DNA of 34,883 bases. Origin: Eubacteriales Family XIII. Incertae Sedis bacterium (GTDB lineage: Bacteria; Bacillota; Clostridia; Peptostreptococcales; Anaerovoracaceae). Positions within the stretch are counted from its first letter, which is position 1. The number at the start of each line of letters is the position of its first letter. The stretch covers positions 1 to 34,883 of the forward strand of contig JAITMX010000066.1 in the NCBI GenBank assembly GCA_031290775.1. Reading direction: 5' to 3'. This document shows positions 28,422-31,977 of this stretch, in pieces. The position numbers and the translations under genes were made by a program. Under the pieces are notes generated by a model that saw only the letters and a program-made list of their open reading frames with translations, was not told where the DNA came from and searched no databases.

Positions 28422-28670
28422 ATGAAAGATTACGAATATTTCAAAACCAATCTCGCCCAATTGTTTGATGCATATGGGCACAGTTTTGTTGTTATAAAAA
28501 ATCTTGCTGTATTGGGCTCTTACGATACTTTTGAAAAAGCCTATACCGAAACGGTCAAGACGGAACCCCCCGGGACGTTCATTATACAAGAGTGTGTTGA
28601 GAATCCAGAAGAGCTGATGCAAACTTTCCAGGGGAATGTCGCGTTTGCGCAGCACGATTTGGCGGTGTAA
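28422..28670 (+). CDS. Small hypothetical protein, first gene of the retropepsin operon
   Basis: SD AAGGAGGTG then [65 protein letters not shown]…; stop overlaps the next start (TAATG). Confidence 0.75.
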
Positions 28671-29212
28671 TGCCCGGCGATTGTTTTACATCTGCATATG
28701 ACAGACTATCCCATGTGCTGATAAATGACGTGGATGTGCAGGGCATCAGCACAACGCTGAAAACAAACGAGTTTGTTCAAGCAAAAGCGCTTTGGGATAC
28801 GGGCGCGACTTCAACGTGTATCCGGCCAGAGTTGGTCGCCAGACTTCAATTAAAACCAGTGGCCGTCACCACGATGAACACGCCAAGCGGGACAAAAGAA
28901 TGCAGCCAATATTATATAAATCTGCATCTTCCGAATCGCGTGGTAGTCGAGCGTATTCTTGCAGTCGAGGCAATCCCGGCCAATTGTGATGTCCTTATCG
29001 GCATGGACGTGATAGGTCTTGGAGATTTTGCTGTTTCCAACCATAGAGGGCAAACTGTTTTTAGTTTTCGAATGCCGTCAATGGAAAAAATTGATTTTGT
29101 AGCACACTCATACTTGACTCCGACAAACAAGCAGAAATCGACAGGCCGCAATGTGCCCTGCCCTTGTGGTTCTGGAAAGAAATATAAAAATTGTTGCGGC
29201 AAAAGCGTTTAG
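28670..29212 (+). CDS. Retropepsin-like aspartic protease with C-terminal SEC-C zinc motif
   Basis: [12 protein letters not shown] (DTGA) and [14 protein letters not shown]-terminal [19 protein letters not shown]. Confidence 0.85.
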
Positions 29213-29409
29213 CCCCTCTCTCCCTCGATCAGATCCTCGATCCGGCAGCCGAGGGCGGCGGCCAGCGCCGCCGCCCTCTTGATCCCCATGCCGTTTATGT
29301 CGCGATATCCACGTTCATACTGCTGGATCGCGCTCACAGGCAGCCCAGCTGATTTGGCGAGCTGTGACTGGGACAGCCCGGCGCCCTTGCGCCGTTCTTG
29401 GAGCGTCAT
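29209..29409 (-). CDS. XRE-family HTH regulator (copy 1)
   Basis: [66 protein letters not shown]. Confidence 0.85.
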
Positions 29410-29768: not shown

Positions 29769-29815
29769 ACGCCTCACCTCCTTTTTGTCTGTGTTTTGCT
29801 TTAACTTATAATATA

Positions 29816-29844
29816 ATTATAGAGCTATTGCGCTATAATGTCAA
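29816..29844 (-). promoter_or_regulatory. Consensus sigma-70 promoter with dyad operator in the spacer (copy 1)
   Basis: Minus strand TTGACA-17-TATAAT; dyad ATTATAGMGC…GCKCTATAAT across the spacer. Confidence 0.8.
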
Positions 29845-29898
29845 GCCTTTTTTCTAACTTTTTTTCAAAATATTTTCATGTTTTTGCTCCAACTATGC

Positions 29899-29904
29899 TA
29901 TACT
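29899..29904 (+). promoter_or_regulatory. Extended -10 promoter for the candidate ncRNA
   Basis: TGCTATACT (extended -10); predicted +1 near G29911. Confidence 0.55.
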
Positions 29905-29910
29905 TATTTT

Positions 29911-30056
29911 GTCGGAGGGGTTCCCTCGTCCGGCCAACAATCGCTTTCCTTGGAAAATGGTTGTGAAGATGGCTCGTGAAGGACTAAGGCTGGGTTCCCG
30001 AATGGGAGTAGGTCAATGACCAAGAATCCTTTGCCCCTGGGGTCATCTTTTTTTTA
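29911..30056 (+). ncRNA. Candidate structured ncRNA adjacent to the Abi_2/AbiF gene
   Basis: Hairpins GAGGG-GTT-CCCTC, ACAATC…TTTCC-TT-GGAAA…GGTTGT, TTCCC-GAAT-GGGAG, long-range CCGGCC/GGCTGG, possible GAAGGA/TCCTTT pairing, terminal ATGACC…GGTCAT stem followed by TCTTTTTTTT; no convincing ORF. Confidence 0.7.
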
Positions 30057-30253
30057 CCCTTTCTTTCAAATTCGCAACGATGTTTTCGGGATCTTTGCAT
30101 ATCTCGTCAAAGATAAAATCAATAGCCTGTATCGAATAACTATAAACCGGTTGCGCTGATTGCCGTCTGCCGCAGTTGCTCGAAAAATTCGAGCAACTCA
30201 ATCTTGCTTACTTCATCATCAGGTAACGAATCTGGCAGCTTGGCGTTTTCTGA

Positions 30254-31117
30254 TTACCGCAACAACTTCTCCCAGTCGTCAGGAAACCCCATATGCCTTG
30301 GCAATGCAAAAGGATGATTGGTGAATATCGTTTTGATTTCCGAAACCAATTGCTCTTGCGCGGTGTCAAACGGCAGCAAATTGTATATCGCGTAGATAAA
30401 AGCGAAAGCCCGTGTCGGTATAATATCTTTTTTGTGCTTGTTCGGCAGCCGGACTGGACAAGACCGCAAATCGCGGTTGTAAAATCTGCCGCCGTGGGCC
30501 GCGATGTTGCGAACATACACACAGCATTGCAGCCAATTCTCTATATATTTTCGGTTGTATCGAAAACACCTCTTTGCGATATCTTCACGGTCCTCTGTGT
30601 GCATATTCTTGAACATCATCGACGACACCCCAAAAGAGGTTGCTTCGATAGCGACCCAAAGAGGAAACACGCTATTTAGATCTTCAACATGATGGTGAAC
30701 AAAGGCATCGTCAGAACGCGACAGCTCATCATCCAATTTTGCAAGAAAACGGGCATGGTACTGAGGATTGTCAAAAGCGCTCGCGTCAAGATAGCCGAGC
30801 GCCCCGTATTTCCCCGCATGGAAGTGTGCAACGCAGGTGCGTAGAGCCACCTCGATGAACGCTGTATAAGCATATATGGTTTTTCGGAAATCGTAGTCAA
30901 AATAGTACAGGTCGCATACATCCCCAAACGACACATCGTTATAAAAGCGATCATGCTTTTGCAAAGTCAAGGCATAAGCGCTGAAACGATAATAATTGAC
31001 GCGTTTCAAGAAATCGGTTGCTGCCGCCTCATCGTCAATCCGCAGCCCGCGACCACGCAAAAGCTGGACTTGCTCGGTATAGGTCTTATATTCTTTTGTA
31101 TTCCCGGCATTCAACAT
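30254..31117 (-). CDS. Abi_2 family abortive-infection protein (AbiD/AbiF-like, HEPN-type)
   Basis: VNYYRFSAYALTLQ, FRKTIYAYTAFIEVALRTCVAHFH, PLWVAIEATSFGVSSMMF, NWLQCCVYVRNIAAHGGRFYNRDL, HMGFPDDWEKLLR; SD GGAG before ATG 31117. Confidence 0.88.
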   Translation of the reverse strand: MLNAGNTKEYKTYTEQVQLLRGRGLRIDDEAAATDFLKRVNYYRFSAYALTLQKHDRFYNDVSFGDVCDLYYFDYDFRKTIYAYTAFIEVALRTCVAHFHAGKYGALGYLDASAFDNPQYHARFLAKLDDELSRSDDAFVHHHVEDLNSVFPLWVAIEATSFGVSSMMFKNMHTEDREDIAKRCFRYNRKYIENWLQCCVYVRNIAAHGGRFYNRDLRSCPVRLPNKHKKDIIPTRAFAFIYAIYNLLPFDTAQEQLVSEIKTIFTNHPFALPRHMGFPDDWEKLLR

Positions 31118-31190
31118 GATTTTCTCCAAAAACTCAAAATCCCCGCCGTGTTACGCATCGTTGAGAGGCTTGGTGGGGTCCGTTGTATTT

Positions 31191-31228: not shown

Positions 31229-31324
31229 TTATCGGGGGGTTGCCCTGTATTTCGTCAGCTCGACGGCAACCATAAACGCCTCGACTGACTTGTTTAATAA
31301 TTTCACTTCAATTGCTTCATTCAT
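31229..31324 (-). CDS. 31-aa small ORF translationally coupled to XRE copy 2
   Basis: MNEAIEVKLLNKSVEAFMVAVELTKYRATPR*; ATG overlaps the XRE TGA. Confidence 0.4.
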   Translation of the reverse strand: MNEAIEVKLLNKSVEAFMVAVELTKYRATPR

Positions 31325-31533
31325 TCCGGCTCACTCTCTCCCTCAATCAGATCCTCGATCCGGCAGCCGAGGGCGGCGGCCAATGCCGCCGCCCTCTTGA
31401 TGCCCATGCCGTTTATGTCGCGGCGGCCTTGTTCGTAATCCCTGATCGTGGCGGCGGGTATCCCGCTTTTGTAGGCGAGGCCGTCTTGCGACAGCCCGGC
31501 GGCCTTGCGCCGCCCCTGCAGCGTCAGCGTCAT
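31321..31533 (-). CDS. XRE-family HTH regulator (copy 2)
   Basis: [70 protein letters not shown]. Confidence 0.85.
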   Translation of the reverse strand: MTLTLQGRRKAAGLSQDGLAYKSGIPAATIRDYEQGRRDINGMGIKRAAALAAALGCRIEDLIEGESEPE

Positions 31534-31882: not shown

Positions 31883-31907
31883 GCTGCTGACCTCCTTTCT
31901 ATATATA

Positions 31908-31936
31908 ATTATAAGGCAATTGCCGTATACTGTCAA
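31908..31936 (-). promoter_or_regulatory. Consensus sigma-70 promoter with GGCAATTGCC operator-like dyad in the spacer (copy 2)
   Basis: Minus strand TTGACA-17-TATAAT; perfect dyad GGCAATTGCC in the spacer. Confidence 0.8.
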
Positions 31937-31977
31937 GCCTTTTTTTAACTTTTTTTCAAAATATTTTCATTTGTTTT

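Follow-up and report, generated by a model that had tools for sequence, protein, structure and literature searches.

Positions 29911–30056 of the window (the whole 34,883-nucleotide contig JAITMX010000066.1, from a Eubacteriales Family XIII. Incertae Sedis bacterium) raise two questions: whether this stretch encodes a functional RNA and, if so, which gene that RNA serves. The original prediction, made from the sequence, described a multi-branched RNA of about 140 nt with an extended -10 promoter and a U-run terminator. In the following, we describe the conserved part of this RNA, the protein gene with which it is associated, and the roles that the pair may play in bacteria and their phages.

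Fold, extent and promoter of the RNA

The window RNA is a small folded RNA that is new to the public RNA-family library (Rfam). It occupies positions 29967–30055 of the + strand, as delimited by a match to our model R1, by alignment A1 and by covariation. A search pattern built from the conserved hairpin yielded 87 loci in viral records and at least 119 in genomes, and A1 comprises 61 DUF3644-linked copies, with the window (linked through a gene remnant) as the first row. Seven of the pattern hits (L157, L191, L204, L222, L226, L229, and L232) were dismissed as chance matches, as they show little motif beyond the pattern itself. The window copy scores 98.2 bits against R1 (E=1e-23), its row being one of the 61 behind the model, and its homology was also seen independently of R1, through blastn of the window. 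When the region was compared with phage and plasmid records by blastn, the RNA matches started at 29965 or later; those in phages lie mostly near integrases, with hypothetical or DUF3644 genes next to them on the other strand. The proposal of a structured, multi-branched RNA stands, with a three-way junction at its centre, but its extent does not: the family unit is a + strand RNA of about 85 nt that begins at about 29966, and the 5′ 55 nt are unconserved. Rfam 15 has no family for this RNA, and an Rfam search of 29780–30250 up to E=5 returned nothing but a chance snoRNA match, RF03085 not being matched. Features of 6S RNA (a long hairpin with a central bubble and an Rfam match) are likewise absent from this three-way junction. 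No second copy was found in a DNA search of 99 relatives, and a search of E. coli genomes gave no match.

In the fold supported by A1, P1 closes the molecule and doubles as the terminator stem, while P2, P3, and P4 form the three-way junction. The 5′ strand of P1 (29967–29975) pairs with 30040–30048, bringing GGUCAU together with AUGGCU, and six of its nine pairs show compensatory changes; a run of eight T residues follows (30048–30055), in agreement with the terminator originally proposed. The 5′ strand of P2 (GGC-U-GGG, 29988–29994) pairs with 30028–30035 (CCU..GCC), the partner of GGCUGGG being UCCUUUGCC, with compensatory changes at four of six pairs. P3 (UUCCC-GAAU-GGGAG, 29995–30008) is nearly invariant in A1, and compensatory changes at three of its pairs appear when A1 and alignment A4 are taken together. 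P4 (GGUC-AAU-GACC, 30011–30021), which includes AUGACC, is a variable hairpin that also carries compensatory changes. Most of the pairings put forward from the sequence are not part of this fold: a 5′ leader (29911–29965) that no homolog found shares contains GAGGG/CCCTC and ACAATC+TTTCC/GGAAA+GGTTGT, and CCGGCC/GGCTGG, GAAGGA/TCCTTT, and ATGACC/GGTCAT are incompatible with it, since P2, P4, and P1 use these strands.

Across A1, 97.3% of the cells are paired, and compensatory changes occur at 13 pairs; both sides of a pair have changed in 151 cells, whereas shuffles give 36.6 such cells and slid controls no more than 24. RNAalifold, applied unprompted to the 61 relatives, recovers the identical fold. 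G-U cells (266) far outnumber A-C cells (14), an asymmetry that places the structure on the + strand. Moreover, in loci recruited through the protein (45 distinct RNA sequences, in an alignment fitted to the model), compensated changes appear in P3 and P4 at pairs to which the search pattern had left no, or almost no, freedom. Covariation among homologs, which the original prediction had named as a check, is present. Folding energies equal to those of shuffled sequences had been named there as evidence against it, and by energy alone the RNA is indeed unexceptional (z=-1.31 for the whole 146 nt; z=-0.34 for the conserved 91 nt), the window’s minimum-energy fold departing in part from the covarying one. 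The fold is accepted on covariation, not on folding energy.

The extended -10 element expected ahead of the RNA is present (TG-C-TATACT, 29896–29904, + strand), with a putative start at about 29911, although its best -35/-10 pair reaches 8/12 and is weak by consensus scan. Among 92 non-redundant linked RNAs, 88% have a sigma-70-like promoter of at least 9/12, as compared to 25% of mononucleotide shuffles, and in 74 of the 81 promoter-bearing linked copies the -10 element ends 4–10 nt ahead of P1. In the window, unlike in these relatives, it ends 61 nt upstream, so the transcript would have an extra leader. This leader (29911–29965, + strand) would form two hairpins (folding z=-2.3); it lies outside the blastn matches and, as far as the homologs seen indicate, appears private to the window copy. 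As originally noted, the RNA segment holds no long ORF and no gene follows on the same strand. Its reading as a functional RNA, not a leader, is well supported by the covarying structure, the + strand asymmetry, the promoters directly upstream in relatives, and the terminator.

The convergent DUF3644 gene

Linkage shows that mobile elements pair this RNA, as a dedicated partner, with a HEPN protein of the DUF3644 type; the original prediction missed the gene of this protein, which is reduced in the window to its two ends. A DUF3644 ORF or fragment lies near 128 of the 217 pattern loci, convergent with the RNA in every case (128/128). In these RNA-found pairs, counting from the motif start, the gene mostly ends after 52–64 nt, which places its end at the RNA terminator; the 3′ ends of RNA and gene meet or overlap by a few nucleotides, and the stop codon falls in or next to the terminator. 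The reverse test, starting from the protein, located the RNA at the same convergent place in 77 of 80 viral loci, a set that overlaps the pattern set and includes near-identical phages and so represents fewer independent cases (45 distinct RNA sequences); in the remaining three, the sequence stops no more than a few bases from the gene. All six genomic loci found by protein also have the RNA. There is one R1 match per protein-found locus and one in the window, with no tandem repeats of the RNA. Distances between the RNAs correlate with those between the proteins (Mantel r=0.61), and the linkage spans at least six phyla as judged by record titles. In the phylum sample, DUF3644 proteins more distant than these gave no R1 match. 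The same holds for other DUF3644 proteins of about 325–435 aa (L239–L243), which may have another RNA or none.

The partner proteins combine DUF3644 with an EC042_2821 domain and match the PADLOC candidate PDC-S19; a protein of this architecture has been classed as HEPN (PMC3710099). The HEPN R-x4-6-H motif is present, with R96 and H101 invariant in 65 partner proteins, and the N-terminal part is helical in an AlphaFold model (pLDDT 86.8). A Foldseek search placed HEPN structures near the top, none of them at E<=0.001, and a PDB sequence search gave no match. HEPN nuclease activity is accordingly a prediction for this partner. Across this subfamily (alignments A2/A3), the ‘REase-like’ C-terminal EC042_2821 domain lacks any nearly invariant acidic residue, and its model consists of helices and two strands; judged from the alignments and the model, it may bind nucleic acid rather than act as a catalyst.

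In the window, a 3′ remnant of the DUF3644/EC042_2821 gene (30043–30201, - strand) corresponds to the last 40 profile positions (288–327; Pfam EC042_2821, E=1.8e-8; profile E=7e-11, match 30049–30168), and its stop codon falls inside P1 of the RNA. A 5′ remnant (31256–31324, - strand, start codon at 31324) corresponds to the first 21 (positions 2–22, match 31256–31318); this match, with E=0.0036 in the ORF set, is a weak one, yet its place and strand are as expected. Between the two lies an AbiD/Abi_2 HEPN gene (30254–31129, - strand; Abi_2 E=2.6e-43, PADLOC AbiD E=1.5e-84), just upstream of which is an abiF RNA (RF03085; 31141–31177, - strand; 37.1 bits against a gathering score of 37), an element separate from the RNA at 29967–30055. 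Full-length DUF3644 protein is absent from the window, and no PF12358 match occurs in the window’s genome (G000, an assembly 86% complete); relatives have the full-length PDC-S19 protein. The simplest account of this arrangement is that the AbiD cassette took the place of the middle of the gene. With the gene reduced to its ends, the window RNA is an orphan copy.

Similar 3′ remnants occur at other orphan loci (L215, L055/L133, and L007), and AbiD-like genes also adjoin the RNA in L055/L133 and L169, where Rfam shows no abiF RNA. Some of the other genes beside orphan RNAs are SIR2-like, Abi_2-like or HsdM-like, as classified by eye and not by profile. Around the window’s RNA/AbiD locus lies a duplicated module, with two XRE-type regulators (29216–29408 and 31334–31526) and matching promoter segments (29811–29869 and 31903–31961), each repeated about 2.1 kb apart. 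The same region holds a FuFi-1 RNA (RF02986; 32868–33059, - strand, 85 bits), and at 28670–29209 (+ strand) of the window a retroviral-type aspartyl protease domain is fused to a SEC-C motif.

There is a sizeable minority chance that the window RNA is a decaying, functionless leftover, a question that is scored separately because such decay is compatible with any role elsewhere. The partner gene has shrunk to two ends, and the promoter position has changed and a leader has been added relative to relatives, all of which would fit decay; however, the R1 score lies within the range of linked copies and every helix still pairs, although a recent loss would look alike.

Orphan and permuted cores in phages

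Model R1 also detects cores without P1 in phage records. Several orphan cores abut same-strand tRNAs, including those of Corynebacterium phage Darwin and of contigs L070, L076, and L089, and in Eggerthella phage LE2-3 tRNAs lie about 0.5–1.5 kb from the core. A tRNA is found within 250 nt at 10 of 89 loci without DUF3644, compared to 1 of 128 with it (Fisher p=0.0007, with related loci not independent). For the tRNAs of phage Darwin (L235), the strand given in GenBank is opposite to that given by ARAGORN. Twenty orphan-core records have no DUF3644 match, some of them being fragments in a set without a positive control, and LE2-3, Darwin, and a 210-kb contig show no tyrosine-integrase match. 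Intact pairs and orphan cores are found in phages of the same hosts: among phages of C. vitaeruminis, Poushou has the intact DUF3644–RNA pair and Darwin the orphan core, and within staphylococci the intact pair of StB20-like phages stands against the orphan core of phi11.

In two groups, the staphylococcal phi11-type phages and L028/L168, the core appears to be circularly permuted, an opened P4 serving as the closing stem, as judged by inspection and pattern search rather than by a calibrated model. A staphylococcal variant (L266/L279) carries a compensatory C-G to U-A change in this opened stem. The permuted core of the phi11-type phages (L236, L254–L281) lies past the endolysin, in a stretch without an annotated gene in phi11. 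We tentatively regard these stripped-down, even permuted cores, many of them in tRNA arrays, as RNA counter-defences that would disarm the DUF3644 HEPN system, a reading to which we give slightly under even weight. If it is true, the permuted forms, which keep the junction and open a different stem, would point to selection on shape for enzyme binding.

Roles of the RNA and relation to known systems

We favour, with moderate confidence, an account in which the RNA is the partner, most likely the antitoxin, of the DUF3644 HEPN protein, with phage copies as decoys and an intact orphan in the window. The RNA would be transcribed from its own promoter, convergent to the DUF3644 gene, and its three-way junction would bind the HEPN protein and keep the RNase inactive; in the manner of the type III-like systems AbiF/RCd22 and ToxIN, infection would halt the RNA supply and free the enzyme, which would then abort the infection. 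Phages with the RNA alone, many of them in tRNA arrays, would deploy it as a decoy, and in the window the AbiD cassette would have replaced the DUF3644 gene and left the RNA behind. The obligate tie to a predicted RNase, the retention of the RNA where the enzyme is gone, and the lone phage copies are as an antitoxin predicts; it is from this pattern that we infer inhibition. The convergent layout with its own promoter, unlike that of type III operons, speaks against an antitoxin, and the linkage in itself also fits a cofactor or substrate role.

Foremost among the alternatives, the RNA could be an activating or recognition cofactor, such that the HEPN protein works only when RNA-bound, as Cas13 does with its crRNA, and orphan phage copies would be competitive inhibitors or leftovers. 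Obligate linkage and co-inheritance of RNA and protein fit this equally, but we consider it unlikely, given that variation within the RNA falls mainly in the short P4 hairpin, leaving no variable guide segment, and that an essential cofactor would have no reason to persist intact where its gene is lost. It is quite improbable that the RNA has its own role in mobile elements (as a small ribozyme, a tRNA-array processing element or a phage regulator) and was acquired by the DUF3644 gene: orphans do abut phage tRNAs and are also present in phages that show no DUF3644 match, yet wherever there is flanking DNA, the DUF3644 genes of this subfamily all have the RNA in the same geometry. Least probable of all is that the RNA serves mainly as a terminator or antisense element for the convergent DUF3644 mRNA, for although the stop codon and the meeting 3′ ends would suit such control, the overlap falls short of what antisense action would need, a terminator needs no conserved three-way junction, and the P2–P4 core is kept in phages lacking both the gene and P1. 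We thus return to the antitoxin account, under which the RNA probably restrains the HEPN enzyme and phage copies may disarm it.

Three known systems bear comparison with this pair. With ToxIN it shares an RNA proposed to act as the antitoxin of an RNase, as well as copies of that RNA in phages, and phages escape ToxIN by RNA mimicry (PMC3475682, PMC5772629). ToxI is there a co-transcribed pseudoknot antitoxin made of repeats, whereas here a single, non-repeated three-way junction has its own convergent promoter and a predicted HEPN toxin. The layout of type III toxin–antitoxins (ToxIN, CptIN, and TenpIN), with the RNA upstream and co-transcribed, is not found: all 128 pairs are convergent, with the RNA under its own promoter. 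AbiF/RCd22 (RF03085) of Clostridioides difficile, in which the RCd22 RNA directly binds and neutralises the AbiF toxin (PMC12373285), likewise joins a HEPN abortive-infection protein to a small structured RNA on prophages. The protein here is DUF3644, not Abi_2, the RNA has no RF03085 match, and it converges on the 3′ end of the gene, while the abiF RNA lies upstream. We claim membership in neither the type III toxin–antitoxins nor the abiF RNA family. The third, PADLOC PDC-S19 (DUF3644 HEPN plus EC042_2821; PMC3710099), is the protein partner itself in relatives, of which the window keeps only the gene ends. Searches for DUF3644, EC042_2821, PDC-S19, and the core sequence in literature outside subscription papers and preprints returned only PMC3710099, which describes no RNA component; an earlier description elsewhere is possible. 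The present work supplies the RNA half of a candidate defence gene for which only the protein was known, and the phage copies allow a possible counter-defence by RNA, concealed in tRNA arrays, to be tested directly. It also adds, beside AbiF and Cas13, a further HEPN lineage linked to a structured RNA, a finding relevant to the origin of RNA-controlled HEPN nucleases.
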